IMG/VR virus record: IMGVR_UViG_3300043540_000114
Span: 1-44,481 of that record
Length of the DNA: 44,481 nt
Source: a virus
Strand: one strand, 5' to 3'
Part shown: piece by piece, positions 1,877 through 40,358 of the stretch
Layout of the letters: each line of letters begins with the position of its first letter
Position numbering within the stretch: position 1 is the stretch's first letter
The notes under the pieces: generated by a model
The model's database searches: none
What the model was told of the DNA's origin: nothing
The model's input: only the letters and a program-made list of their open reading frames with translations
Translations under genes and position numbers: made by a program

Positions 1877-4622
1877 TCTCACCAAAATCGTTTCCATTCT
1901 TTTCGAGGCCGATGACCAAATGTCGGCCTCACTTTCCACTATATCTTCCTCGTTCGACTCATTCGAGTCAAAGATCAGCAGTATCGCTTCCCCACTATCT
2001 GATATAGCAGACAAGATTATCAAGCTGGATACTGCGCTTGCTGCCATGGCAGTTGGTGGGGCGGCTTATGCCATTGGTAAGTTCTCGGAATTCGAAGATA
2101 AAATGCTGACCGTCAAGGGTATTATGCAGGCTTCGGATTCGGATTACGAGCGGCTGACCGAGTTGACCAAGGGGCTTGGTGAAACAACTCGCTACACGGC
2201 TGAACAGGCTGCAGAGGGGTTACAGTATTTGGCAATGTCAGGTATGAAAACCAATGATGCTATCGGTGCCCTGCCTGAAACCCTGAAGCTTGCCCAAGCC
2301 GCGAATGTGAGCTTGGGAGAGGCAGCGAATATTGTTGTGAATATCATGGCTGGATATGGCAAACAGGTATCAGAGTTGCCGTCTGTGAACGATACCTTGG
2401 TAGCAACTTTTACCAATACTAACACCAATCTGACCCAACTCTACGATGGCTTCAAAATGGTTGGCCCTTTAGCGAAGGCAATGGGGGTTGACATTCAAGA
2501 CCTTTCGGCGGTTCTGGGAGCCCTGGCTAATGCGGGTTATCAAGGCGAGATGGGCGGTACTGCCTTGCGTAATATTTTGGTTGCGCTGGCTGAACCCACC
2601 AAAGACATGTCCAAGGTAATGGAAAAGCTTGGAGTGGACACCTCGGCTATGGGGGTAGAGCTTGGTAGCGGTCAAAAAGCCATGGAAAGCCTTGGCGTGA
2701 AGGTGAAGGACGCCAACGGCAATATGCGGCCCTTGGTGGATATCATAGCCGACCTTCAGAAGGGAATTCAAAATATCCATGATCCGGTTGATCAGGCTGG
2801 AATTTTGATGGAAATATTTGGCAAGAGAGGCGGTCCGCAGATGGCGGCACTGCTGACCCAGGGTGGCGATGCGATACGGGCTTTAGAGGAAAAAATAAAA
2901 TCAGCGGGAGGGATAACATCCTCTATCGCAGACATAATGGAAAGCCGTATGGGTGGAGCCATACGGGCGCTGAAATCAGCCATTGAAGCGGCCGTAATAA
3001 ATATCGGTGATGAATTAAAAAAAGGTGTAGAGCCTGCAACAGAGGGAATGACTGCACTGTTTCGGGCAATAGCCTCGGCGGTGAAAACAGGCAGTTTTGA
3101 TGATGTTTTCCAGGTTGTCCAGAACATGGGGGTTGATCTTGAAGAAGCATTAAAAACAATCGCCCAAAATCTTCCGGAGGCGCTTGAAAAGGTTGATTTT
3201 TCTGGGTTTCTGGATGCTTTGGGCGAGTTCGGGGACACGATTAAAGGGTTTTTTCAAGACGATATCGACCTAACAACGGTTGAAGGGCTTGCAAATGCTC
3301 TTCAGGGGGTTGTGGATTTCCTCACCGGATTGGTGCGGGTTACAAACGGGATGGCTGAAAGTATCGGGCCTGTTTTCAAGACTATCGTGGAAGGGGTTCA
3401 ATCGGTTGCGACGGCGGATAAAGAGCAGTCGGGGACCCTTGGAAATATTTTGGGGGCCTCCAAACTGATTGTGGAACTTGGTGGGTCTGTGGTTGCGGCG
3501 CTGGCCTTGATTGAGCAGAGTGGGACCTCAGTACAAAGCGTTTATGATGTGTTGGCAGGAAGCATTAAAACCGCCTGGAACACGTTACAGGTTGGTTTTG
3601 ATTCTATTGTACTGCTCATCGCAGAATCGGTAACCGCGATCCTGGATTCGGTCAACACGCTAACCTTTGGTTCCTTTTCAAACGAAATCCAGCAGGCAAG
3701 GGATAGTGTTGAAAGATTTAGAAGTGCCGTGGCCACTGATTTTACAGCCCAGATGCAGGACTTGGGAGATGGCCTGGATCAGATCGGCAGGGGGTTTACT
3801 GGGGCGGGGGATAGTGCAGCGGAAGCTGCTGACAAAATTGGCGACGTATCGGAGGCCATGGCAGATGTTCCTGAAAAAATCGATACCGGTGTTGATGTTT
3901 TTTTGACGGGAGAGGAAAAGGTCGATTCGTGGTTGATGAGTATGCACAATATCGATGCGATAACTGTTTCCACCTTTTTGGAGGTTGATGAATCGAAATC
4001 GCAAGCCGCGAAAAAAGAGCTCGAAGACGTACTCAGGTATGAAGACGGCATCCCTGTATATGCTGTAACCTATGTGGATAAAAACGCAGCAGAAAAAACC
4101 AAGAAAGAGCTTGCTGAAGCAATACCCGAAAGCAAGCAAATGGAAATCAAGCTGAAAGGTGAGATCGACAAAGAGATCACCAAGATAAAAGCTGATGCAG
4201 ATACTGTACAAACTGCGATGGAGTGGAATGCAAAACTAAATATCGCTCAGGCTGAAGCGGAAGCATCAAAGCTTGAGTCAATGATGCAAAATACCAGCGA
4301 TATCATCACAGGTATGGGGGAAACAATTTCCAGTTTATTCAGTGCTACGCCGAAAGACTCATCAAGCTGGATGGAATGGTACGATGCACTAAAACAACAA
4401 GAAAAAATTCAACAGGAAACACATGACCTGAATAAAGAAATTCTAAAACAACAAATTAAAATGATGGAGCTCAAAAATCAGAAGCTGAAAAGCGGAGATG
4501 CAATGATCAAGATTGATGCAACCAGCCTGGCCGCGCCACTGAAAACCTTATTCTGGGAACTGGTAAATATGGTTCACATTGAGGCGGATCAGATGGGGCA
4601 AGAATACCTGTTGGGGATATAG
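1869..4622 (+). CDS. Tail tape measure protein
   Basis: 917 residues, the second longest gene of the tail module, directly after the chaperone. The N-terminal 50 residues are a Ser-rich helical segment. Residues about 60-330 resemble the TP901-type core of tape measure proteins, with Gly- and Ala-rich helical repeats (for example YTAEQAAEGLQYLAMSGM). Hydrophobic stretches follow around residues 480-620, and the C-terminal 250 residues are rich in Lys, Glu and Gln and look like coiled coil. The protein sets tail length and is ejected with the DNA. From about 0.15 nm per residue a tail of roughly 135 nm is expected. The start overlaps the end of the frameshifted chaperone. Confidence 0.92.
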   Translation: MADLTKIVSILFEADDQMSASLSTISSSFDSFESKISSIASPLSDIADKIIKLDTALAAMAVGGAAYAIGKFSEFEDKMLTVKGIMQASDSDYERLTELTKGLGETTRYTAEQAAEGLQYLAMSGMKTNDAIGALPETLKLAQAANVSLGEAANIVVNIMAGYGKQVSELPSVNDTLVATFTNTNTNLTQLYDGFKMVGPLAKAMGVDIQDLSAVLGALANAGYQGEMGGTALRNILVALAEPTKDMSKVMEKLGVDTSAMGVELGSGQKAMESLGVKVKDANGNMRPLVDIIADLQKGIQNIHDPVDQAGILMEIFGKRGGPQMAALLTQGGDAIRALEEKIKSAGGITSSIADIMESRMGGAIRALKSAIEAAVINIGDELKKGVEPATEGMTALFRAIASAVKTGSFDDVFQVVQNMGVDLEEALKTIAQNLPEALEKVDFSGFLDALGEFGDTIKGFFQDDIDLTTVEGLANALQGVVDFLTGLVRVTNGMAESIGPVFKTIVEGVQSVATADKEQSGTLGNILGASKLIVELGGSVVAALALIEQSGTSVQSVYDVLAGSIKTAWNTLQVGFDSIVLLIAESVTAILDSVNTLTFGSFSNEIQQARDSVERFRSAVATDFTAQMQDLGDGLDQIGRGFTGAGDSAAEAADKIGDVSEAMADVPEKIDTGVDVFLTGEEKVDSWLMSMHNIDAITVSTFLEVDESKSQAAKKELEDVLRYEDGIPVYAVTYVDKNAAEKTKKELAEAIPESKQMEIKLKGEIDKEITKIKADADTVQTAMEWNAKLNIAQAEAEASKLESMMQNTSDIITGMGETISSLFSATPKDSSSWMEWYDALKQQEKIQQETHDLNKEILKQQIKMMELKNQKLKSGDAMIKIDATSLAAPLKTLFWELVNMVHIEADQMGQEYLLGI

Positions 4623-18444: not shown

Positions 18445-19212
18445 ATGATTGACTCCATCCATCAATCAATGATCGGTATGGCCCTTAAATGTGGCGAACG
18501 GTTCAGGCGGCGGTACATCGAAGGGGAACGAGCACCTGCTGGAGTCGAGGCAGCGCGTGGGCAGGGGTTGCATGCGGCCAGCAAGGTGAACCTTCGGCAA
18601 AAGGTTTTAACCGGTGTCGATCTGCCCCTATCCGACATGATGGACGCTGCTCGTGATGGGTATGTGAAGCAGATCAGCGAAGGGGTGTATATGGCCCCGG
18701 ATGATGTCCCTTTTAAGAACACCATATTGAATCAGGGGCTGAATGAAGCCATCCGATTGACCGGGATTTATGCAGAGCGTGTGGCTCCCAGGATCAAGCC
18801 AAAACGGGTAGAGGAGCCGTTCAAACTGGATATTGGGTTGCCGATACCGTTGGGCGGGATCATTGATTATGAGGAAGCGGATTCGTTGGGCGATCTGAAA
18901 TCGGCTGGGAAACCGTGGCCGGAAGGAAGGATCAAGACAGAAATCCAGGCGAAGCTGTACAGCTATGTTTTCGAAAAAAAGACCGGTATCAGGCCAAGAT
19001 TTGACTATCATATCCATTCTGTCAAAGGAATGGCCCTTCAAACGCTTTCGGTTACGCCTACCATTGATGATTACCGGGCAATGCTGATGACGGTCAAAAG
19101 GTTCTGGTTGATGGTTCAGGCGGGGATTTTCCTTCCTGCAGAACCGGGAGCGTGGTGGTGTAGTGAGCGTTTCTGTCCCTTCTATTCGAGTTGTGCGTTT
19201 GTTGGAAATTGA
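18445..19212 (+). CDS. PD-(D/E)XK nuclease with Cys cluster (Cas4/RecB-like)
   Basis: 255 residues. The nuclease core is visible: Asp in GGIIDYEE (near residue 134), the D-x-K motif in GDLKSAGKPW (near 150) and Q-x-x-L-Y-S-Y (near 168). An N-terminal Cys in MALKCGERFRRRYIEG and three C-terminal Cys in WWCSERFCPFYSSC are arranged one plus three, as in Cas4, AddB and related exonucleases that hold a 4Fe-4S cluster. It probably acts as a DNA exonuclease in phage recombination together with the neighbouring genes. It starts 3 bases after the Cro-like gene, so it is under the early promoter. Confidence 0.8.
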   Translation: MIDSIHQSMIGMALKCGERFRRRYIEGERAPAGVEAARGQGLHAASKVNLRQKVLTGVDLPLSDMMDAARDGYVKQISEGVYMAPDDVPFKNTILNQGLNEAIRLTGIYAERVAPRIKPKRVEEPFKLDIGLPIPLGGIIDYEEADSLGDLKSAGKPWPEGRIKTEIQAKLYSYVFEKKTGIRPRFDYHIHSVKGMALQTLSVTPTIDDYRAMLMTVKRFWLMVQAGIFLPAEPGAWWCSERFCPFYSSCAFVGN

Positions 19213-19226
19213 AAGGGATCGCTGGC

Positions 19227-19985
19227 ATGGATATAAAAAATGAAGTGGCAATTATCAAAATAGACGAGATTATTAGAAGAAAACCATTTGACGGCCTCTT
19301 CCAGTTAGAAATTGAGACAGTTTCAAGAATAGAAAAGAGCATCAAGGAAAACGGCTATGATGAAAAATTCCCAGTCATTGTTTGGAAGGGTGAAAATGTC
19401 TGTATCGATGGGCACCAAAGGCTTTACGCGCTTCATCTTTTGAACAAAAAAACCGTCCCGGTTGTCTATGCTGAATTCAAAGATGAAAAAGAGGCAGTTG
19501 AATACGCCATCAGGATTCAGCGAGACCGGAGAAACATAACGGATGCTGAAATCGTCAAGCGGGTTCTTCTTTTGGATGAACGGAAAGAAGTCGGCGCGAA
19601 TCGGTATTCAAATGTAGGTGGTTCAAGTGAACCACCTACAAAACAACCAGAACCATCAGCCGAAACCACAGCCAAGAAAGCCGGGACGTCTGCAACGAAG
19701 GTCAAGAAGATTCGGACAATCAAAGACCATGCACCGTCTGAAATTATGGAAGCGGTTGAATCCGGTCAAATGTCAATCAATGAAGGTTATCGTGAAACAC
19801 AAAAAACAAGAAAAACGGAGGTAGGACATGAGAAACGGGAATCAGGTGACATCATCAAATTCGAAAAATCTTTCAATGCCTTTCTTGAACAGCTTATCCG
19901 AGCAAGAAACAACGGATGGGTGTCAATCGATAGGGAATATGCAGCAGAATGCACAAAGAGGCTCTCGAATATTGTTGGCGGTTAA
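19227..19985 (+). CDS. ParB-like nuclease-domain protein 1
   Basis: 252 residues from ATG 19227. The N-terminal 90 residues follow the ParB/Srx pattern: an Ile-Lys-Ile-Asp-Glu-Ile start, FPVIVWKGENVCIDGHQRLY with the G-H-Q-R motif near residue 60, and VPVVYAEFKDE. A middle segment (about 110-195) is rich in Pro, Thr and Lys, followed by helical VKKIRTIKDHAPSEIMEAVE, similar to the central HTH-like region of ParB. No ParA partner was found. Such proteins in phages may regulate, nick or bind DNA. The last 158 bases overlap the next gene in another frame. Confidence 0.7.
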   Translation: MDIKNEVAIIKIDEIIRRKPFDGLFQLEIETVSRIEKSIKENGYDEKFPVIVWKGENVCIDGHQRLYALHLLNKKTVPVVYAEFKDEKEAVEYAIRIQRDRRNITDAEIVKRVLLLDERKEVGANRYSNVGGSSEPPTKQPEPSAETTAKKAGTSATKVKKIRTIKDHAPSEIMEAVESGQMSINEGYRETQKTRKTEVGHEKRESGDIIKFEKSFNAFLEQLIRARNNGWVSIDREYAAECTKRLSNIVGG

Positions 19986-20868
19986 TCCTAAAGATTACGC
20001 CATGAGAACGATTATCGAGCACATGCTTATGGATACAAAAGATATAAAGTTTAATGCTGAGTATCAAAGGACGCTTGAACAGTGGCGGCTTAAAAAAATT
20101 ATAGCGTCAATGCGTGCTTATGGTTATTGGCCATCTGAAGTAATCGTTTTGAATGAAAAACACGAAGTGGTTGACGGACAACACAGGACAAAAGCGGCCA
20201 TTAATATCGGCATAAAACAAGTCCCTGTTTGCATTGTCACGTTTCCGAATAAAAAGCTTGAGGCGAAGTTCTTCGCAGACAAAAGCAACTACAACTGCAA
20301 CTTAAAACCGGTTGATTTCTGGCACGCGAGATATCTTTCAGGGCACCCAGTAGCAGAAGCTTTATATAAACTTGAGGCTGACAAATCATGCAATTTGTAT
20401 AACAGAGTAGCCCTAAAAGGGCGAGAAAGCAAAACTACGAAATATATAATTAATCAAGTGCTTTCGATGTTTTGCATGATTACAAGAATGAACGATTCAA
20501 ATTGGCGGAAAGATAATGATGATCAATTGATGAATAAAATTTTAGAAATTAGTTATGACAAATTAGTGGCTAAAATTAATCAATTTACAACATGGCTGGA
20601 ACAGAGCTTCGGATTAAAGGGAGGTTCAATGGCTTATGAAACATCTCACTTCAGGTCAATCCTGAAATTTTATTCGATCATTGAAGATCATGGAGACGCT
20701 CAAAAAAGCGAGTCAATAAAAAAAATGAGGAGTTACATCTTTACATCAGAGCTATCAAAATTAACCCACACAGCGAGGGTTTATGCGTTGATAGCACACT
20801 ACAACAAGGGAAAAATGGATAAAAACAAAATTTCCTATGAGCCAATAGAGAAGGAGGAGAAAGCATGA
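19828..20868 (+). CDS. ParB-like nuclease-domain protein 2
   Basis: 346 residues if it begins at ATG 19828, which has an excellent ribosome site (CGGAGGTAGGAC) although it lies inside the preceding gene. A later in-frame ATG at 20002 would avoid the overlap but has a weak site. The ParB-like core is VIVLNEKHEVVDGQHRTKAA (near residues 103-122), containing D-G-Q-H-R, then VPVCIVTFPNK. The rest is helical and charged. The first 58 residues are Ser-, Asn- and Gln-rich, as if shaped by the overlapping frame. Two ParB-like genes side by side suggest duplication followed by wide divergence. Confidence 0.65.
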   Translation: MRNGNQVTSSNSKNLSMPFLNSLSEQETTDGCQSIGNMQQNAQRGSRILLAVNPKDYAMRTIIEHMLMDTKDIKFNAEYQRTLEQWRLKKIIASMRAYGYWPSEVIVLNEKHEVVDGQHRTKAAINIGIKQVPVCIVTFPNKKLEAKFFADKSNYNCNLKPVDFWHARYLSGHPVAEALYKLEADKSCNLYNRVALKGRESKTTKYIINQVLSMFCMITRMNDSNWRKDNDDQLMNKILEISYDKLVAKINQFTTWLEQSFGLKGGSMAYETSHFRSILKFYSIIEDHGDAQKSESIKKMRSYIFTSELSKLTHTARVYALIAHYNKGKMDKNKISYEPIEKEEKA

Positions 20869-21989: not shown

Positions 21990-22061
21990 GGTTAACCATT
22001 CACCTTAATGAGGCATGCCTCTCTTATTGATGGGGTATGCCGATGGCTGATGGAGGGAAAA

Positions 22062-22970
22062 ATGATAACGAAAATCAAAGGTAAAGGTTTTAAGGGTACC
22101 GATTTTATAGATTCGATAGGACGCCTCAATTTGTATATCGGGCCGAACGGATCCGGTAAAACGGCGCGAAGCATGGCCGTAGCCTTGGCGGTTCAAGGAT
22201 ATGTGCCGTCGCAGGGCAAGACGAATCAAGCTATTTTTCAAGCGGGTGCATCACCAGATAGTGACCGGTTCGCGGTTGAGGTGGAATCAAATTACAAGGT
22301 TTCATTTTACCGGAGATGGCTCAAAAGAGGTGATGGCACGGTAACTGTAGATGTATTAGTGAATGGGCGGAAAGCAAGCACACAGGTTTTTGCCGCAGAA
22401 ATGGCTCGATGCGGAGGAGGGTATGTTATCGCAGACATTTCCCTGTTCATGGGGCTGAGTGATCGGAAAAAAATCGATGAAATCTTCCGACTGTATCCCC
22501 CTGATGATGATATGGCAAATATCGAGCAGGAGCTTGAGGAAAAACGTGAAGCGCTGAATCGATGCCAGCAGCAGTTTAAGAATGCCGAAAAAATATGGGA
22601 AAGATTGACGAATCAAAAAGAACGACTGGAACAACCCCAGATGCCTCTGGAAGATTGCAAGAGCGAATATGATGCTTTGTCTATGCGACTTATCGAATTG
22701 CGCCGTGCTGCACAGGAGGAGCAAAATAGGCATCAACAGGAAACACATATAAACTTGAAGCCAGATGTTATCCCATCTGATATCGGGAAAGATGTTGCCC
22801 CATCTGATACCGGGAGAAAAGATTGGCAGCCAATTGGGGGGTTGCGACAGATGGCAATAGATGCGCTCGAAACTGTTTTGAAAACCATGATGCAAGCAGG
22901 GTGTACGAGTTGCGCAGCAGGATTGATAGCCAAGAAGCAATTAAAGAGGATCAGGGGGGCCGAGGCATGA
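22062..22970 (+). CDS. Rad50/SMC-like ATPase, N-terminal half
   Basis: 302 residues from ATG 22062 with GGAGGGA before it. Residues 26-33 are the Walker A loop GPNGSGKT, following a strand of SMC/RecF type (NLYIGPNGSGKT). A Q-loop-like region and VIADISLFMGLSDRKKIDEI follow. Residues 140-235 are strongly coiled coil. Near residue 280 comes CTSC, a C-x-x-C like the Rad50 zinc hook, close to the end of the protein. There is no ABC signature or Walker B; these lie in the next gene, whose start overlaps this stop. The two products probably join at the hook and heads to form one SMC-like unit. Confidence 0.75.
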   Translation: MITKIKGKGFKGTDFIDSIGRLNLYIGPNGSGKTARSMAVALAVQGYVPSQGKTNQAIFQAGASPDSDRFAVEVESNYKVSFYRRWLKRGDGTVTVDVLVNGRKASTQVFAAEMARCGGGYVIADISLFMGLSDRKKIDEIFRLYPPDDDMANIEQELEEKREALNRCQQQFKNAEKIWERLTNQKERLEQPQMPLEDCKSEYDALSMRLIELRRAAQEEQNRHQQETHINLKPDVIPSDIGKDVAPSDTGRKDWQPIGGLRQMAIDALETVLKTMMQAGCTSCAAGLIAKKQLKRIRGAEA

Positions 22971-23533
22971 AACAGGACATTGCAGAAGAAATCAGCGAGA
23001 TCGAAGCCAAAAAGGCATGGTTAGAAAACCAAATTCAGGTTCACAACGAGATCGCCTTACTTGAGCGGCAGATCGAAGAAATCAGGGAAGAAATGCAAGA
23101 CTCAGAAGTAATGCTTCAAGCGCTCAAAGAGGAGGTGGATGACTACGCAAGCCAGAAGGCATTTTATGTGGCGAAAACATGCAGTACATTGGCGGATAAG
23201 GCTTCGCAGCTTTTGCCGAGCGGGAGTATTTATATCGATATCGGTGAAGGAGATGTAGTAAAAATCGGGTGGATCAGGGAAGATGGCGTCATGGTGCCAT
23301 ATCCTGGACTTTCGGGAGGCCAGAAGGTGGCTTTTGATATGGCCGTTTCAGTGGCACTTTTGGGTGTAGATAAAAACAAAATCTTGGTGGTTGAGGCGGC
23401 GGAATTGGATTCTGAACATTTACTGAATTTGCTTACGCATATTCAAAAGGAGATTCCAGAACAAACACAGATAATTGTGAATACATGCCATGAAGTAGAG
23501 GCGCCTCAAGGATGGATAGTGAATAGACTTTAA
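22967..23533 (+). CDS. Rad50/SMC-like ATPase, C-terminal half
   Basis: 188 residues with its ATG overlapping the preceding stop (ATGA). The first 75 residues are a charged coiled coil. Residues about 115-120 are LSGGQK, the ABC signature, followed by a helix (VAFDMAVSVALLG) and a Walker B-like strand KILVVEAAELD near 138, where Glu-Ala-Ala-Glu stands in the place of the usual Asp-Glu. A late strand IIVNTCHEVEAP supplies the switch His. It lacks Walker A and must pair with the upstream product. This is a natural split of one SMC/Rad50 chain at the hook, not a frameshift: the frames overlap by an in-phase ATGA and each has a clean start. Confidence 0.75.
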   Translation: MKQDIAEEISEIEAKKAWLENQIQVHNEIALLERQIEEIREEMQDSEVMLQALKEEVDDYASQKAFYVAKTCSTLADKASQLLPSGSIYIDIGEGDVVKIGWIREDGVMVPYPGLSGGQKVAFDMAVSVALLGVDKNKILVVEAAELDSEHLLNLLTHIQKEIPEQTQIIVNTCHEVEAPQGWIVNRL

Positions 23534-24214: not shown

Positions 24215-24354
24215 ATTGGAAATATTATGAGTTTTCAGAATGCCCCGAATGCGGTGAAACAATGGAGGTCCTGAAAAATGAAAACGGCAATCGTCAAACT
24301 GGAAAGCGTATCACCTATCACCTTTGGGCGTTATCATCTCACGCCGAAACTTGA
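24211..24354 (+). CDS. Small protein with one CxxC knuckle (possible)
   Basis: 47 codons. The ATG overlaps the 3D-domain gene stop (ATGA), suggesting coupling. The sequence holds SECPECGETMEVL, a C-x-x-C knuckle as in zinc ribbons, but no second pair. The last 25 codons overlap the next gene in another frame. It may be a real micro-protein or a leader that couples translation. Confidence 0.35.
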   Translation: MNWKYYEFSECPECGETMEVLKNENGNRQTGKRITYHLWALSSHAET

Positions 24355-24835
24355 TCGGGAATTAGATGACGATTATGAAAAACGCACATGGCGAGAAAAG
24401 GTTCATGCCGATCAAGATGGGAACGTGTATTTGACGCCCATGATGCTCAAAAACTGCCTTGCGGAGGCCCCGAAATTCATGGGCGCTCAAATTCCTGGAA
24501 AAGGCAAAGCAACTTACACCAAACACTTTGAGGCCGGTATTTTAATTACAGACCCCATCTATCTCGGAGTTAAAAAAGAAGATGTTGAAGAGTTATGGCT
24601 ATATGTTCCATCCGATGGACAACGAGGAGGAACCAAGCGGGTGATGAAATGTTTTCCACTCGTTCGAGAATGGAAAGGGGAAGCAACAATTTATGTGCTG
24701 GATGAAATTATCACCAAGGATGTCCTTCAGAGGTTTTTGACGGCTGCCGGGCAGTTTATTGGCATGGGTAGCCTGCGGGTACGAAACAACGGCCTTCATG
24801 GTAGATTTAATGGCCAGATAGTATCGTTCGGTTAA
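24278..24835 (+). CDS. Unknown early protein with RAMP-like Gly-rich C-terminus
   Basis: 185 residues with ATGGAGGTCC before ATG. Features are an N-terminal strand (KTAIVKLESVSPITFG), LTPMMLKNCLAEAPKFMG in the middle, and a C-terminal Gly-rich segment, AAGQFIGMGSLRVRNNG followed by LHGRF. The strand arrangement and the final Gly-rich loop recall the RAMP/ferredoxin-like fold of Cas proteins, and similar proteins are met in phage early regions. This is a fold-level impression; no RNA-processing role is claimed. It is the last gene before the pentamer/hairpin array. Confidence 0.45.
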   Translation: MKTAIVKLESVSPITFGRYHLTPKLDRELDDDYEKRTWREKVHADQDGNVYLTPMMLKNCLAEAPKFMGAQIPGKGKATYTKHFEAGILITDPIYLGVKKEDVEELWLYVPSDGQRGGTKRVMKCFPLVREWKGEATIYVLDEIITKDVLQRFLTAAGQFIGMGSLRVRNNGLHGRFNGQIVSFG

Positions 24836-24955
24836 AATGCGATGGGTAGAGATGTGTTCATGATATGAGACGGGACCGGATCGGATCAGACGCGACATGA
24901 CCGGGCATGACGGGATAAGATCGAATGGGACATGACATGACTAAACAAGAACAGA

Positions 24956-25012
24956 CATGATCAACTTTCAAGGCATCCGATGGATGTCTTGATGGGTGAT
25001 TATGTCACCAAA
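24956..25012 (+). repeat. Hairpin module 1 of pentamer array
   Basis: CATGATCA, then stem CAAGGCATCC/GGATGTCTTG (24969-24978 with 24982-24991, loop GAT, one G-U), then palindrome GGTGATTATGTCACC ending in AAA. Confidence 0.8.
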
Positions 25013-25091
25013 ACGAAGCAACCTGACTTAACATGATCGGACTTGACGAGACATGACACGATCGGACGAGACAAGATCAGACAAGACCAGA

Positions 25092-25148
25092 CATGATCAA
25101 CTCGAAACCGTTCAGATTGAACGGTTTCAGGGTGATCATGGCACCAAA
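25092..25148 (+). repeat. Hairpin module 2 of pentamer array
   Basis: CATGATCA, then stem GAAACCGTTCA/TGAACGGTTTC (25104-25114 with 25118-25128, loop GAT, perfect 11 pairs), then GGTGATCATGGCACC and AAA. The stem sequence is unrelated to module 1, but the pairing and 3-base loop are kept. Confidence 0.8.
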
Positions 25149-25227
25149 ATGAAGCGACCTGACTTGACGTGACCAGACTGGACAAGATGCGATGCGACCT
25201 GACAAGACAAGATCAGACAAGACCAGA

Positions 25228-25285
25228 CATGATCAGCTTTCAGCCCGCCAGTAATGACGGGTTGATGGGTGACCATGTCACCAAA
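25228..25285 (+). repeat. Hairpin module 3 of pentamer array
   Basis: CATGATCA, then stem CAGCCCG/CGGGTTG (25241-25247 with 25258-25264, 10-base loop, one G-U), then GGTGACCATGTCACC and AAA. This stem again differs in sequence. Confidence 0.75.
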
Positions 25286-25344
25286 ATGACTGGACAGGAC
25301 GAGACGTGACATGACGAGACGTGACGGGGCGAGACAAGACCAGA

Positions 25345-25401
25345 CATGATCAGCTTTCAAGGCATCCAATGGATGCCTTGATGGGTGATTATATCACCAA
25401 A
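25345..25401 (+). repeat. Hairpin module 4 of pentamer array
   Basis: CATGATCA, then stem CAAGGCATCC/GGATGCCTTG (25358-25367 with 25371-25380, loop AAT, perfect), then GGTGATTATATCACC and AAA. The left arm equals that of module 1; the G-U of module 1 is G-C here. Confidence 0.8.
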
Positions 25402-25497
25402 GCGAATCGACGGGACCAGACATGACAAGATTGGGCTTGACATGACGAGACAAGACGCGACACGACCAGATACCCAACAAACCAACAGGAGGCAAAA

Positions 25498-25995
25498 ATG
25501 CAAAAAGGAATCAAAGCATTATCGGTTGATGCGCAAGAAATTTACAAGAGATTGGTTAAACTGGCAGAAGGCGAAACGATCACATATCAAGAATTGAGCG
25601 ACATTATCGGTAGAGATATTCAGAAACATCGTAACTGTCTTTATACTGCTTATAAAATGGCGCTCAAAGAAAATAGAATGGTTTTTGATACCATTCGAGA
25701 CGAGGGGATTAGGCGATTGAAAAATGATGAAATCCCCAACGTGATTGGCACATATTCCATTACCAGGATCAGAAGAACATCCAGAAGGGGAGCAACCAAA
25801 ATTGTAGCCGCTGATTATAATTCGCTTTCCAATGAGATGAAGGTGAAACATAACGCCCATCTGTCGGTCTTGGGTGCATTCATACAAATGACGAAACAGA
25901 AGGCCATTGAGCGAATTGAAACTGCTGTCAGGGAGAACGAGGATTTGAACAAGATCACGTATGCCAGGACCCTGGAACAGTTCAAAACAATATAA
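25498..25995 (+). CDS. Hypothetical early protein, possible winged helix
   Basis: 165 residues with AGGAGG before ATG, directly downstream of the pentamer array. Residues about 22-70 (ETITYQELSDIIGRDIQKHR and the following helix) look like a winged-helix or similar DNA-binding fold: helix, turn at Ile-Gly-Arg, recognition-type helix, then a strand with MVFDTI. The middle has basic RIRRTSRRGATKIVAAD. A DNA-binding role, perhaps at the adjacent array, is a plausible inference but is not shown. Confidence 0.5.
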   Translation: MQKGIKALSVDAQEIYKRLVKLAEGETITYQELSDIIGRDIQKHRNCLYTAYKMALKENRMVFDTIRDEGIRRLKNDEIPNVIGTYSITRIRRTSRRGATKIVAADYNSLSNEMKVKHNAHLSVLGAFIQMTKQKAIERIETAVRENEDLNKITYARTLEQFKTI

Positions 25996-26543: not shown

Positions 26544-27077
26544 GTAGAAAATACCGCACTTCATAGGTTTCTACATATAGAAACGAGGTTTTTATATGTA
26601 GAAATCCAATATGAGGAAAAATAATGGGCAGACCTGTTAAAGATACCGTGGATTATTTTCCGCATTATTGTGTTCACAAAAGCACGATGTTCATCATTGA
26701 ACAGAGATATGGGAATGACGGATATGCCTTTTGGTTCAAGCTGTTAGAGATTTTAGGCTCAACGGAGGGACATTATCTGGATTGCAATGATTTAATGAGA
26801 TGGGAGTTTCTACAGGCAAAAACCCGGACGAACGAGAGTTTCTGTACCGAAATCCTGGATTTGCTGTGTAGATTGAATGCAATTGATCCCGAATTATGGA
26901 AAAAACGGATAATTTGGTCCCAAAATTTCATTGATGGCATTGCCGAGGTGTATCGAAATCGCAGAAAACCAGTACCATCAAAACCAGCTATTTCAGGGTT
27001 ATTAGGTGTAGAAACTGAGTTATTAGATGTAGAAACCCCGGCAGAACAGAGTTTCTACTCCCAATCTATGGTAGAAA
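26544..27077. repeat. Iteron-like GTAGAAA / TTTCTAC repeats, candidate origin
   Basis: GTAGAAA or its reverse occurs at 26544, 26568, 26598, 26807, 27008, 27029, 27052 and 27071; TAGAAAC at 26578 completes a perfect 7-4-7 palindrome with the copy at 26567 (GTTTCTA-CATA-TAGAAAC). Three copies extend to GTAGAAAC or its reverse inside the initiator gene. Chance expectation for a 7-mer on either strand in this length is well below one. They are followed by a purine run and the C-rich palindrome at 27120-27144. The arrangement is that of an origin inside an initiator gene, as in lambda O. Confidence 0.6.
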
Positions 27078-28323: not shown

Positions 28324-28538
28324 CAAAAGGGGGTGAGCAGATAATTTTAACACAGCTTATCGAGCTTGAATCCAAAATGCGCGAAATAGGAGTCATGATG
28401 ATGGAAACCGGGGAAACCCAGATCATGCTGCATGGGGAAGAGCTTATGGATGCTGCATGGATTGTGAAAGACTGGATTGAATGGATGAAGCCAGAATCAA
28501 CCTACAAACAAAACAAACATGAAGGGGCAAACAAATGA
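28320..28538 (+). CDS. Small helical hypothetical protein
   Basis: 72 residues, coupled by ATGA to the preceding gene, and overlapping the HU/IHF gene start by four bases. The sequence is helical and Met- and Glu-rich, with LTQLIELESKMREIGVMMME followed by ELMDAAWIVKDWIEW. No known domain was recognised. Coupled translation between the small Cys protein and HU suggests a DNA-metabolism operon. Confidence 0.5.
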   Translation: MTKGGEQIILTQLIELESKMREIGVMMMETGETQIMLHGEELMDAAWIVKDWIEWMKPESTYKQNKHEGANK

Positions 28539-28834
28539 ATCGATCAGAGATGATCAAAGCATGTGCCGAAGCGGCAAGGGTAACTCAAAAACAGGCAGGA
28601 GAGGTCCTCGACGCTTTTGTTCGGGAAGTTAGAAGTAACGCAGAAACTGTAATCAGAGGTTTTGGGACATTTCGCTTTATGGTGATGCCCGAACGCAAGG
28701 CACGGAATCCGAAAACCGGGGAAACGGTTATAGTCCCGGAGCGGACCGTTTTGAGATTCAAGCCTGCGTGCGCGAAGGAGATCAGGCGTTTCGTGATTGA
28801 CGGAGCCAGGCGACAGGGTGAAGGATTGAGGTGA
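28535..28834 (+). CDS. HU/IHF-family DNA-bending protein
   Basis: 99 residues. The HU pattern is clear: an N-terminal two-helix part with RVTQKQAGEVLDAFVREV, then RGFGTFRFMVMPERKARNPK and TGETVIVPERTVLRFKPA. The Arg-Asn-Pro-Lys at the arm tip (near residues 63-66), including the Pro that intercalates in DNA, is present. It probably helps origin structure, recombination or packaging. A phage-borne HU beside an iteron region suggests a DNA-bending role there. Confidence 0.9.
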   Translation: MNRSEMIKACAEAARVTQKQAGEVLDAFVREVRSNAETVIRGFGTFRFMVMPERKARNPKTGETVIVPERTVLRFKPACAKEIRRFVIDGARRQGEGLR

Positions 28835-28845
28835 AATCGGGGTTG

Positions 28846-28965
28846 ATGCTTTTCGAAAAAACCTCACTAGGCAAAAGGACAGCCCGTTTGGCTGGAAATT
28901 ATGGCCCGGGGTATATATTGATATGCCCTGGGTTAAAAATGCTGCTTAAAAAGGCCCTGGCTTGA
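28846..28965 (+). CDS. Micro-ORF, doubtful
   Basis: 39 codons in the gap after HU, preceded by GAGGTGAAATCGGGG. It is basic at the start and hydrophobic in the middle (YGPGYILICPGLKMLL), ending near the MazG-like start. The same bases can form a stem between CCCGGGGTATA and TATGCCCTGGG, so the stretch may be a leader hairpin instead of a gene. Confidence 0.25.
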   Translation: MLFEKTSLGKRTARLAGNYGPGYILICPGLKMLLKKALA

Positions 28966-28967
28966 TT

Positions 28968-29249
28968 ATGGAAAAAGAAAATGTGGATATGCTTTTTGTG
29001 CGGGCAATAAGACACTGGGGAGAAAAAAATCAGATGCTGATGGCCGTTGAGGAGGCTACAGAAATGATCCAGGCCATTTTGCATTATTTACGCCAGAGAA
29101 ACACGATTGAAGAGGTAGCGGAAGAGGTGGCTGACGTGATCATAATGGCTCAACAGATGCGAATCATATTTGGTGTCGAAAAAGTGGACCGATTTATAAA
29201 CGAGAAGTTAAATCGGCTTAAATTACGGATAGATAAAGACGTTATGTAG
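28968..29249 (+). CDS. MazG-like nucleotide pyrophosphohydrolase
   Basis: 93 residues. The family metal-binding motifs are visible: EEATE near residues 27-31 and EEVAEEVADVI near 50-60 (E-x-x-E, then E-x-x-D), all in a short all-alpha chain. Such enzymes hydrolyse NTPs, dNTPs or alarmones to monophosphates. In phages they may adjust nucleotide pools or remove modified or harmful nucleotides. It is shorter than host MazG, as usual for phage forms. It begins the nucleotide/DNA group followed by RusA, SLOG and PRTase-like genes. Confidence 0.8.
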   Translation: MEKENVDMLFVRAIRHWGEKNQMLMAVEEATEMIQAILHYLRQRNTIEEVAEEVADVIIMAQQMRIIFGVEKVDRFINEKLNRLKLRIDKDVM

Positions 29250-32305: not shown

Positions 32306-32832
32306 GCGGCAAAAAGTATGGAGATGCAAAAGACCTTGCTGGACTATTGGGTGTAAGCCGACCTCGTATTACTGCGCTGATAAAGCGCGGGATATTTGGT
32401 GATGTCGCAAAGCGAAAAAAAGACGGTACATATCGAATTGATCTGGAGGCGGCAGCGGCAATAGCAAGACAAAATATTGATCCTGCCCAGCCTGCGGGTA
32501 AGATCAAAGGGGCAGACAGCAGCGCCCGTGGTGTCAAACCGACGGGAGGAATTGATTATGTCACCGCGCGGGCACTCAATGAGCAGTATAAGGCAGCGGT
32601 CAAAAAATTGGAATATGAGGAACGAATCGGAAAATTGGTTGATGCAAAAAAGGTTCAGGAGATCGCCTTCGATACGGCAAGGAGAGTAAGAGATAGCCTG
32701 TTGAACATACCGGATCGGCTTTCGGCGCTCTTGGCGGCGGAACCGAATGAAATAAAAGTCCGGGAATTATTGACGAAGGAGATTCGGCAGGCGCTGTCGG
32801 AATTGGTGGATAATAATGGCGCAGCAACTTGA
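32302..32832 (+). CDS. Terminase small subunit (Nu1-like)
   Basis: 176 residues, its ATG overlapping the glycosyltransferase stop. The N-terminus has a winged-helix/HTH: YGDAKDLAGLLGVSRPRITA, then LIKRGIFGDV, as in lambda Nu1. A Gln-Ala-rich linker and C-terminal helices (LNEQYKAAVKKLEYEERIGK) follow, the usual region for contact with the large subunit. It recognises cos or pac DNA. Terminase large follows with overlap. Confidence 0.85.
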   Translation: MSGKKYGDAKDLAGLLGVSRPRITALIKRGIFGDVAKRKKDGTYRIDLEAAAAIARQNIDPAQPAGKIKGADSSARGVKPTGGIDYVTARALNEQYKAAVKKLEYEERIGKLVDAKKVQEIAFDTARRVRDSLLNIPDRLSALLAAEPNEIKVRELLTKEIRQALSELVDNNGAAT

Positions 32833-34660
32833 TGCAAGACAGATTTATTTGACGGCATTCCATGATGGACTGAGGCCGGATCCGGAGTTAACGGTGTGGG
32901 AATGGGCGGATGAGCGGCGGATGCTGACTGCTGGGGCATCGCGCGAAGCAGGGAAATACCGAACAAGTCGGACACCATACCTGAAAGAAATTATGGACTG
33001 CCTTTCGGCAAATAACCCGGTCACCGAAATTGTTCTGATGAAGCCCACCCAGATCGGTGGTTCTGAAGTCGCAAACAATTTCATTGGATATGTGATCGAT
33101 TGCGCTCCTGGACCGATTCTATATATGCTTCCAACAGTAGAGCTTGCAGAAGATCATTCCAAAAATCGCATAGCACCGATGATCGAAAAAACTCCCTCAC
33201 TTGCTGCCAAGGTGAACCCGGCCAAAAGTCGTGATGGTGGAAACACGGTACTGTCAAAGAAATTCCTGGGGGGAGCGCTTTATATGGCTGGATCGAACTC
33301 CGGGGCTTCCTATCGGAATAAATCAATCCGGTATCTGATTTTGGACGATATCGATGGTTTTGAACCGGACGTTGACGGTGAAGGGAACCCGGTGCATTTG
33401 GCGGAAAAGCGGACCGACACCTATGCCAGTCGAAAAAAGATATTCAAGATCAGCACGCCCACCAACAAAGGGGCATCGCTGATCGAAGCTGAGTTCTTAA
33501 AAAGCGACCAGAGATATTACCATGTCCCATGCCCCTTTTGTGGTTGCAAACAGGTTCTCGAATGGGGCGGGAAAGACAAAAATTACGGAATCAAATTCAT
33601 GGTTCATGAAAGCGAGATCGTTGATGTTTGGTATGAGTGCAAATCATGCCATCAACGAATCGATGAGCATCACAAAACAAGGATGCTTGAACAGGGGGAA
33701 TGGATACCGAGGTTTCCCAAACGGTCAAAGCGGGGATATCATATAAATGGATTGATGTCCCCTCTTGGTTTCGTCACATGGTACCAGATTGCCGCTGAAT
33801 TTCTTGCTGCTCGAAAGGACCGACTTGCGCTGAAAGTTTGGGTAAATACTCGGAAAGGGGAGACCTTCGAGGAACCCGGCACGCAGCCGGAATGGGCTTT
33901 ACTCCAAGCTCGTTGTGAGCCCTATGCTTTGATGACGGTTCCATCTGGGGGGCAATTCATCACGGGGGGCGTTGATGTTCAGGAAGACCGTATCGCGATT
34001 GTATTGCGGGCTTGGGGCTTCGGGGAAGAAAGCTGGTTGATTTGGCACGGGGAAATCTTTGTTGATCCGTTCGACCAGTTGGACAAATTACTGGTGACGC
34101 AGATTTACAGCACCGATCAGCGGTTGATACCAATCGTGGGAGTGGGTATCGATTCAGGATTTAGGACACACGAGGTGTACAATTATTGTAGGCTTCGAGG
34201 GCCGCGTGTTTTCGCGCTGAAAGGCGAGCGGGCGAAAAATAAGCCTGTCATTGGGCGACCCACGCCTCAAGATGTCAACTGGAAAGGCAAGATGATCCCG
34301 AATGGCATCAAATTATGGCCGATCGGAACGGATACAGCGAAAGCAACTATTTATAGTAGATTTAGGGAAAAGATCAACCCAGGGCCTGGGTGCTATCACT
34401 GGTATATCGGAACTTCGGAAGAATACTTTCAGCAGGTGACAGCAGAAAGGATTGAGACACGGATAAAAGACGGTTTTCCGACCATGGAATGGGTGAAGAC
34501 GAGAGATCGCAACGAAGCGTTAGACTGTGAGGTGTACGCCTATGCAGCGGCGATTCGAGCTGGACTCGTGTGGATGCAAGAAGAAAATAACAGCAACCCG
34601 GCAAAACAACAGCCGAAAAAACCGGCAGTTACCGTTAAAAGCAGTTTTATGAATCGATAG
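32816..34660 (+). CDS. Terminase large subunit (lambda gpA family)
   Basis: 614 residues. Walker A-like PTQIGGSE lies near residues 76-83, and a Walker B-like YLILDDIDGFEPD near 172. A zinc-type pair, CPFCGC near 239 and CKSC near 275, is common in this family. In the nuclease part, GVGIDSGF near 443 and EALDCEVYAYAA near 568 give acidic residues for metal binding. It packages DNA into the prohead and cuts it. Length is close to lambda A (641). The family predicts cohesive ends, although the cos site is not located. Confidence 0.95.
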   Translation: MAQQLDARQIYLTAFHDGLRPDPELTVWEWADERRMLTAGASREAGKYRTSRTPYLKEIMDCLSANNPVTEIVLMKPTQIGGSEVANNFIGYVIDCAPGPILYMLPTVELAEDHSKNRIAPMIEKTPSLAAKVNPAKSRDGGNTVLSKKFLGGALYMAGSNSGASYRNKSIRYLILDDIDGFEPDVDGEGNPVHLAEKRTDTYASRKKIFKISTPTNKGASLIEAEFLKSDQRYYHVPCPFCGCKQVLEWGGKDKNYGIKFMVHESEIVDVWYECKSCHQRIDEHHKTRMLEQGEWIPRFPKRSKRGYHINGLMSPLGFVTWYQIAAEFLAARKDRLALKVWVNTRKGETFEEPGTQPEWALLQARCEPYALMTVPSGGQFITGGVDVQEDRIAIVLRAWGFGEESWLIWHGEIFVDPFDQLDKLLVTQIYSTDQRLIPIVGVGIDSGFRTHEVYNYCRLRGPRVFALKGERAKNKPVIGRPTPQDVNWKGKMIPNGIKLWPIGTDTAKATIYSRFREKINPGPGCYHWYIGTSEEYFQQVTAERIETRIKDGFPTMEWVKTRDRNEALDCEVYAYAAAIRAGLVWMQEENNSNPAKQQPKKPAVTVKSSFMNR

Positions 34661-38622: not shown

Positions 38623-38844
38623 GTGGCATATACAGTGGATGATCTGACAGCAGTCAATTCGGCGATATCAAGGCTGATGGCCGGTGAGCGAGTGGTCCAG
38701 ATAAGCAAGGGCGATATGATGGTGGAGTATGGCCAGGCAAAGTTGCAGGAGCTACGGGATTATCGGTCGGAAATAATTGCGAGTCTCAAGGCGACAGCGG
38801 GGAGGTCGAGCCATTTTCGAGTGGCAACCAGCAAGGGGCTGTAA
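38623..38844 (+). CDS. Head-tail joining protein (gpW-like)
   Basis: 73 residues from a GTG start with GGGGGATTAG before it. The helical pattern with DDLTAVNSAISRLMAGERVV, then a strand MMVEYGQAKLQELRDYRSEI fits gpW, a small protein that closes the filled head and offers the tail-binding site. In lambda W also stands before the portal gene B. The portal ATG overlaps its stop. Confidence 0.8.
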   Translation: MAYTVDDLTAVNSAISRLMAGERVVQISKGDMMVEYGQAKLQELRDYRSEIIASLKATAGRSSHFRVATSKGL

Positions 38845-40358
38845 TGGGATACCTGAAAATATTGGATAGCAGAGGCAACAAAATTCGTATGGCGCTTCCG
38901 GATTTCGAAGGGGCTGGAAGCGGCCGGAGACTATCATCATGGGGAATGTCTTCCGCAGGCCCGAATAATACCCTGTTTTCTTCTCTTGGAACCCTTCGGT
39001 CAAGATCAAGGGAGCTTGTCCGAAACGACCCCCAGATTGATGGTGCACTGAATACGCTGGTATCCAATCTTGTTGGCATGGGTATTTCCCCGCGTTGGCA
39101 AATTCATGATTCTCAATTGAAAAAACAGATTCAGGCGTTATGGGCTGACTGGATTCTGGAGGCTGACGCCGACGGAATTCTGGATTTCTATGGACTGCAA
39201 TCCTTGGTCACACGGTCAATTATCGAAAACGGTGAAGTTTTTGTACGGTTCCGGCCTCGGCGACCGGAAGACGGGCTTTCGGTTCCCCTTCAGCTTCAGG
39301 TTTTGGAGGGTGATCACCTGGACCCAGCATACAACACGATTGCCCCGAACGGCAACGAAGTTCGAATGGGGATTGAGTTTGACGCGATAGGACGGCGGGC
39401 GGCGTACTGGATGTTCCGGGAGCATCCCGGGGAATCGTTTCTCACTGTCAGGGATCAATTCGAGCGAGTCCGGATTCCGGCAGAAGAGGTCATGCATATA
39501 TACAGACCATTGAGGGCGGGACAGAAACGGGGAATGCCATGGCTGGCCTCTGTATTGGTTACGATGCATGAACTCAATCAATTTAATGATGCGGAACTTG
39601 TCAGAAAAAAAACTGCTGCCATGTTTGGCGGATTTATTACCCAGCCCCCGGAAGATACTGAAATGCCATCGGTGCTGGGGAATCTAAATGGCACGGATGA
39701 ATCCGGGAGCCCGGTAATCGATATCGAACCGGGAACGTTTCCTGCGCTCCCCCCTGGATACGAGGTGACATTTTCTACTCCGGCGGATGTAGGGGGGAAT
39801 TATGAGTCATTTGTAAAACATCAGGAACGACGGGCGGCAAGAGGTCTTGGTGGCCTCACCTATGAGAAATTCACCGGCGATCTGAGCGGGGTCAATTATT
39901 CCTCCATCAGGGCCGGGAATCTGGAATTCCAGCGACAATGCAAGCAGTTTATTTACAACGTGTTGGCGTTTCAATTCTGTAGGCCAGTCGCTCGGTATTG
40001 GCTCAATCAAGCGTATCTTGCGAATGCTATTGATCTGCCCGGTTACGCGAAGAATCCCAAGCAATATTGGAGGATCAAATGGACCATCGATGGCTGGCCG
40101 TGGGTTGATCCTCTGAAAGACCTTAACGCCTCAAAGGGCATGGTTAGGGCAGGTTTTTCGTCACGCACCCAGGAGGTCGCGGAACGAGGCCTTGATGTAG
40201 AGGAGTTGGAAGCCGAGATTGCAGCAGATAACGAGCGGGCGGACGCCATGAATCTTGTGTTCGATTCGGACACACGTAAAACCGATATCAGTGGGAGAAA
40301 TTATAGTGCTGAACAGCAACAAAAAAATAATGTCAGCGGTGCCAGCAAGACTAATTGA
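38844..40358 (+). CDS. Portal protein (lambda gpB family)
   Basis: 504 residues. The lambda-type portal pattern is visible: an early RSRELVRNDPQIDGALNTLV, the aromatic WADWILEADADGILDFYG, QLQVLEGDHLDP near residue 155, EVMHIYRPLRAGQKRGMPWL near 215 and the GLGGLTYEKFTGDLSGVNYS segment near 340. It forms the dodecameric ring through which DNA enters. The C-terminal 30 residues are polar. The protease gene overlaps its end. Confidence 0.95.
   Translation: MGYLKILDSRGNKIRMALPDFEGAGSGRRLSSWGMSSAGPNNTLFSSLGTLRSRSRELVRNDPQIDGALNTLVSNLVGMGISPRWQIHDSQLKKQIQALWADWILEADADGILDFYGLQSLVTRSIIENGEVFVRFRPRRPEDGLSVPLQLQVLEGDHLDPAYNTIAPNGNEVRMGIEFDAIGRRAAYWMFREHPGESFLTVRDQFERVRIPAEEVMHIYRPLRAGQKRGMPWLASVLVTMHELNQFNDAELVRKKTAAMFGGFITQPPEDTEMPSVLGNLNGTDESGSPVIDIEPGTFPALPPGYEVTFSTPADVGGNYESFVKHQERRAARGLGGLTYEKFTGDLSGVNYSSIRAGNLEFQRQCKQFIYNVLAFQFCRPVARYWLNQAYLANAIDLPGYAKNPKQYWRIKWTIDGWPWVDPLKDLNASKGMVRAGFSSRTQEVAERGLDVEELEAEIAADNERADAMNLVFDSDTRKTDISGRNYSAEQQQKNNVSGASKTN

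Follow-up and report, generated by a model that had tools for sequence, protein, structure and literature searches.

The tandem pentamer array at positions 24867–25471 of the window (the whole stretch of 44,481 nucleotides that was analysed, from a virus record of IMG/VR) is very probably the guide-RNA locus of a VIPR system. VIPR, reported in a 2026 preprint, is a phage-borne system of a RAMP protein, Vipr, and vrRNAs of 9–16 pentamers having a GGY/NN or related consensus (PMC13142463). In each vrRNA the pentamers are followed by a structured tail, and double-stranded DNA is recognised through the NN pairs, one base being skipped (PMC13142463). The present locus extends this newly reported RNA-guided system, whose code is gapped and which has been proposed to stand at the root of CRISPR, to a GAY triplet, to a different position of the array, between vipr and its accessory gene vap, and to long covarying tails with replaceable stems. 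The original prediction, that no known element has this design, holds for most of the literature but is superseded by the VIPR preprint (PMC13142463). The features of the locus are the following.

24278–24835, plus strand: predicted vipr gene, encoding a 185-residue RAMP-type protein with the glycine loop GMGSLRVRNNGLHGRF at residues 162–177
24867–24961, plus strand: repeat block of putative vrRNA 1, 19 units, 15 of them NNGAY by unit count
24954–25006, plus strand: predicted tail hairpin of vrRNA 1, minimum free energy (MFE) −31.7, z −7.0, overlapping the last units
25023–25097, plus strand: repeat block of putative vrRNA 2, 15 units, 14 of them NNGAY by unit count
25092–25140, plus strand: predicted tail hairpin of vrRNA 2, MFE −29.3, z −6.3, with a different stem sequence and covarying pairs
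25154–25233, plus strand: repeat block of putative vrRNA 3, 16 of 16 units NNGAY, with a predicted target in the Sak4 gene of a rival phage
25226–25279, plus strand: predicted tail hairpin of vrRNA 3, MFE −30.6, z −6.0, with a third stem sequence
25286–25350, plus strand: repeat block of putative vrRNA 4, 13 units, 12 of them NNGAY by unit count
25343–25395, plus strand: predicted tail hairpin of vrRNA 4, MFE −30.8, z −6.3
25407–25471, plus strand: fifth repeat block, 13 units, 12 of them NNGAY, having no tail and running into the ribosome-binding site of vap
25498–25995, plus strand: predicted vap (vipr accessory protein) gene, encoding a 165-residue protein of the vap1 family with a predicted winged-helix-like N-terminus

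The array is located between two genes of the same strand, coding for the proteins of 185 and 165 residues, and its five blocks comprise 76 pentamers. The consensus NNGAY is found in 69 of these, including all 16 units of the third block, and this recount from the sequence agrees exactly with the numbers given previously. G is present at position 3 in 73 of the 76 units, A at position 4 in 73 and C or T at position 5 in 75, whereas positions 1 and 2 are variable, the commonest base accounting for 37–38%. When compared with 2000 dinucleotide-preserving shuffles, in which the number of GAY pairs at a distance of five bases is on average 5.2 (standard deviation 2.2, maximum 14), the 58 pairs that are observed exclude chance as the source of the period; a second-order Markov model reaches at most 28. 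Four of the blocks have 13–16 units, as expected for vrRNAs of 9–16 repeats; the first block is longer (19 units), which is a near rather than an exact fit, and its true start may be at 24862, roughly one unit further upstream. The fifth block is a candidate for either a fifth vrRNA or a 5' leader, and an array that ends directly at a ribosome-binding site, as this one does, is common among the relatives.

On the evidence of sequence comparison and structure prediction, the gene at 24278–24835 encodes a Vipr. Its product is a compact RAMP homologue with an RRM-like core and a glycine loop, and it is related to the Vipr of phage SUSP1 (PDB entry: 36pp), as shown by a phmmer search with the single sequence (E = 5.9e-5), with the family profile (E = 7.1e-7) and by the profile comparison of the family with SUSP1 Vipr by hhalign (E = 9.5e-10). 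Both proteins are included in PHROG 4652 (phrog_4652), and SUSP1 was also reached when the Vipr of a relative of the window was used as the query. The AlphaFold (AF2) model of the protein has a pLDDT of 92, and its comparison with solved folds by Foldseek identifies the type VII Cas7 (E = 2.5e-8) and Csm3 (TM-score 0.62), as well as a viral protein annotated as a Cas system-associated RAMP. No Pfam family was found for either flanking gene, and a tblastn search with the window Vipr against known phages gave no match.

The gene after the array, at 25498–25995, is a homologue of the vap1 family, placing an accessory vap beside vipr, and it is matched in profile searches by the SUSP1 vap1 gene (E = 7e-6, then 1e-13), for which the gene directly after SUSP1 vipr was taken. 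Of the 98 Vipr loci that were compared, 86 have a vap homologue on the same strand, SUSP1 vap1 being among them; the search of viral contigs with vap itself as the query gave no confirmed relative at that sensitivity, and the homologues inside the Vipr loci were found later with the profile. The AF2 model of Vap (pLDDT 90) has weak Foldseek matches to winged-helix DNA-binding folds and nothing stronger, which suggests a winged-helix-like N-terminus. The presence of a vap1-family gene suggests kinship with VIPR type II.

The blocks are separated by four modules containing GACATGATCA, which start at 24954, 25090, 25226 and 25343, and the spacings of 136, 136 and 117 bases are as originally described. 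The best predicted RNA fold of each module is one long hairpin of −29 to −32 kcal/mol (z −6 to −7), in which the outer stem is formed between GACATGATCA and TGATTATGTC or variants of the latter, and which takes in the last pentamers. The modules had been read as double hairpins; the fold with two hairpins, using the GGTGA-N5-TCACC palindrome, is 5–9 kcal/mol weaker, with the outer stem being blocked, and was rejected as the description of the module, although it could form a pseudoknot. The stem sequences differ between the modules and the stems nevertheless stay paired, with seven pairs being changed on both sides, and none of 500 shuffles is as good when considering the paired-cell and covariation measures. 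The replacement of stems with preserved pairing is therefore real and, as far as the tails are concerned, it was correct to suggest a large structured RNA in which structure, and not sequence, is selected. A structured 3' tail with a variable stem sequence follows four of the five blocks. The stem replacement is not peculiar to the window, since swapped stems in structured tails between neighbouring guides are also seen in a few relatives (for example, loci L007, L046 and L038–L040). A different arrangement is present at 3754–4201 of L074, where four or five tandem vrRNAs have a short, almost invariant tail, AAGTTTTTATTATCCCATTTATGAAATC, in contrast to the long hairpins of the window. The search of IMG/VR for a module-like pattern gave a single match, in an unrelated phage of 250 kb, which was judged to be due to chance.

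It is possible, though rather unlikely, that the vrRNAs are real and that the modules, instead of being passive tails, serve as signals for processing or act as ribozymes between the guides. Such a role would fit their location between tandem blocks, and arrays interspersed with hammerheads are reported for other VIPR types (PMC13142463). However, no Rfam family, the hammerhead included, fits the modules at the gathering level, and at a permissive threshold there are only chance matches to unrelated families. The stem is also freely replaceable, with no obvious conserved catalytic core.

When the locus, read as a VIPR system with hairpin tails, is compared with the type II system of SUSP1 (PMC13142463; vipr at 28474–29061 of KT454805.2), it is found that both are phage-borne, that both combine a Vipr RAMP protein with a vap1-family gene and that both have several vrRNAs per locus, being tandem pentamer RNAs of two variable and three fixed letters with a structured 3' tail. 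The differences concern the fixed triplet, which is GAY in the window and GGY in SUSP1, where the sequence has NNGGY arrays beside vipr; the position of the array, which is between vipr and vap in the window, whereas the SUSP1 arrays are before and after the pair; and the tail, which in the window takes the form of a long hairpin, three different stem sequences occurring within a single array, whereas the SUSP1 tail is described as invariable. The sequence identity of the two Vipr proteins is about 26%. The nearest Vipr relative (74% identity), in locus L016 (IMG/VR contig 3300020048_000562), likewise has a GAC triplet and a downstream vap, but its array consists of 30 uninterrupted units without hairpin modules. 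With the backbone proteins Cas7 and Csm3 of CRISPR-Cas types VII and III, the RAMP fold is shared and, presumably, also a periodic protein–RNA assembly, the period being five nucleotides in the window and six in those systems. No CRISPR array of direct repeats and unique spacers was found near the locus, and none of the genes that were searched against Pfam, NCBIfam and PHROGs matched a cas gene, cas1 and cas2 included.

By analogy with the published system (PMC13142463), transcription from vipr towards vap would generate four, perhaps five, vrRNAs, each consisting of 13–19 NNGAY pentamers, the first four being capped by a hairpin tail of about 53 nucleotides. Vipr, as a single-domain relative of Cas7, would polymerise on the vrRNA, and we infer that one protomer binds per pentamer. 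The earlier idea of a binding scaffold would then be right in spirit as regards its five-base steps, with a RAMP protein probably occupying each repeat. Again as proposed for VIPR (PMC13142463), Vipr would grip the fixed GAY triplet and present the programmable NN pair, the NN pairs would read double-stranded DNA in the pattern NNxNNxNNx, in which the skipped base is usually the wobble base of a codon, and the bound complex would repress genes of competing phages, with Vap helping. A system that acts on RNA, as the type III and type VII Cas7 complexes do, would be in agreement with the nearest solved folds, which are those of type VII and type III Cas7, but this is quite improbable, as the SUSP1 Vipr, the closest relative for which data are available, binds double-stranded DNA, represses through it and works on both strands (PMC13142463).

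Relatives in IMG/VR preserve the period. Arrays of period five adjoin vipr in nearly all of the 98 Vipr loci, in agreement with the original prediction that a functional element should retain its period in related phages. Automatic extraction gives 245 arrays in which two positions vary and three are fixed, a count which includes the five of the window itself and a few duplicate contigs; judged by sequence, the tandem-pentamer intergenic RNA flanking vipr is present both here and in the relatives. Besides GAY, the fixed triplets include GGC, CGC, GAC, CTC, GTT, GTC, AGT and CAC. These data also bear on whether the array is instead a double-stranded DNA scaffold with half-turn steps, such as an origin, a partition site or a nucleoid site, bound for example by the ParB-like protein encoded at 19191–19985. 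Five-base steps, local inverted repeats and a ParB-like gene 5 kb upstream would suit such a scaffold, which is nevertheless very unlikely: over about 90 phage loci the period tracks vipr and vap and not a ParB gene, so that the proposals of a replication origin and of a ParB or partition site receive no support; the tails stay paired via compensatory changes, which is typical of RNA; and the genomes of relatives such as L010 and L011 each hold several arrays, which terminate at ribosome-binding sites. Slippage is known to yield uniform units. A recent, functionless simple-repeat expansion by slippage, to which the block ends echoing each other (AAGAC CAGAC ATGAT) and a likely duplication of the 136-base module might point, can be dismissed, being refuted by the pattern of two nearly random and three fixed positions, found also in the 245 arrays with different triplets, and by the preservation of the period in relatives.

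The arrays of the relatives differ in layout. In the L010 and L011 loci, about six separate regions of CGC pentamer arrays occur within 7–12 kb, before and after most genes. Uninterrupted arrays of 34–38 units are found in L063 (7640–7829), L019 (9119–9308) and L021 (5806–5975); these are perhaps the staggered, overlapping vrRNAs of the preprint (PMC13142463).

On the Vipr tree the fixed triplet of the VIPR arrays has changed at least 17 times, and the comparison of the 98 loci narrows the search for the protein feature that determines the triplet to one candidate residue of the glycine loop. Arg165 is present in the loop of all 46 distinct proteins that go with a triplet having G in the middle. 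With a middle A, it is present in two of ten proteins, the others having Ser, Phe, Met, Val or Gln, and with a middle T in four of seven. The window Vipr, with its GAY triplet, has Ser165. Arg165 appears to have been lost perhaps six times on the tree, several nodes of which are weak, and always in lineages without a middle G; a strict phylogenetic pairing of residue 165 with the triplet leaves too few well-supported branches and pairs for significance. We tentatively propose, as a possibility somewhat short of an even chance, that in this clade the fixed triplet of the vrRNA can itself be read and can evolve, residue 165 setting it (Arg for a middle G; Ser, Phe, Met, Val or Gln for most middle A triplets) and thereby giving rise to orthogonal VIPR systems, and that the tails keep their shape while swapping stems between neighbouring guides, perhaps as a protection against recombination of the array.

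The first letter of the triplet is associated with two other Vipr residues (window numbering). When this letter is G, Lys124 and Pro111 are each found in 38 of 39 proteins; when it is C, mostly Arg124 (15 of 23) and Asn111 (13 of 23) are found. This link may reflect shared ancestry.

Possible targets of the guides were searched for on both strands of 5.7 Mb of contigs of VIPR phages, with skips of 0–3 bases. If one base is skipped, 26 of the 32 letters of guide 3 agree with L069 (2278–2325), including ten consecutive units with 19 of 20 letters, while with any other skip the guide reaches at most 22 of 32. The match is in codon phase, with the skip at the wobble position, and is located in a gene for a Sak4 single-strand annealing protein (recombinase). 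Among unit-shuffled guides, the score of 26 was reached in none of 1171 and the local score of 18 in two of 771. The core pattern of guide 3, written after the match was known, occurs in all of IMG/VR only in the L069 contig. L069 carries a VIPR locus itself, so that the targeted phage would be a rival that possesses such a system too. The Sak4 gene is a candidate natural target of guide 3, the match being graded as suggestive because five guides were tried. Exact patterns of 9–10 units from guides 2 and 3 have no perfect target in IMG/VR, and within the 5.7 Mb nothing better than chance was obtained for guides 2, 4 and 5. For guide 1, the best match (L197, nine units with 19 letters running) is likely due to chance, as the skip falls on codon position 1 and the gene is GC-rich and unrelated.

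A second case lies outside the window. The helicase gene of phage L010 agrees in 21 of 26 letters with a guide of the sister phage L011, again with the skip at the wobble position, which is better than the 18 of 26 letters in the copy of the gene that L011 itself carries. Over all 198 arrays, there are three one-skip matches scoring at least 18, versus 0, 0 and 0 in three unit-shuffled sets, and scores below 18 do not differ clearly from the shuffled sets. The enrichment of the wobble phase over all arrays was set aside and is not used as evidence, since it is largely equalled by the unit-shuffled controls.

The carriage of the locus by a phage is in agreement with the origin of the window from a virus record and with its terminase and portal genes (32816–34660 and 38844–40358), for which the closest known phage is the Wolbachia phage WO, at 41–51% identity. 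Upstream of the locus, the ParB-like gene is followed by a reading frame at 19828–20868 with a weak match to a ParB-like/GmrSD-like N-terminus. Two tandem copies of 27 bases (22763–22815) lie within an AAA ATPase gene (22008–22970), and at 22823–23533 the coiled-coil/ATPase reading continues in another frame, possibly as part of a split SbcC/Rad50-like gene. Downstream, in the gap before the gene at 26624, the 21-base tandem repeat AGGTTTCTACATATAGAAACG (26565–26604), within which there is a short inverted repeat (TTTCTA..TAGAAA), resembles a pair of operators.
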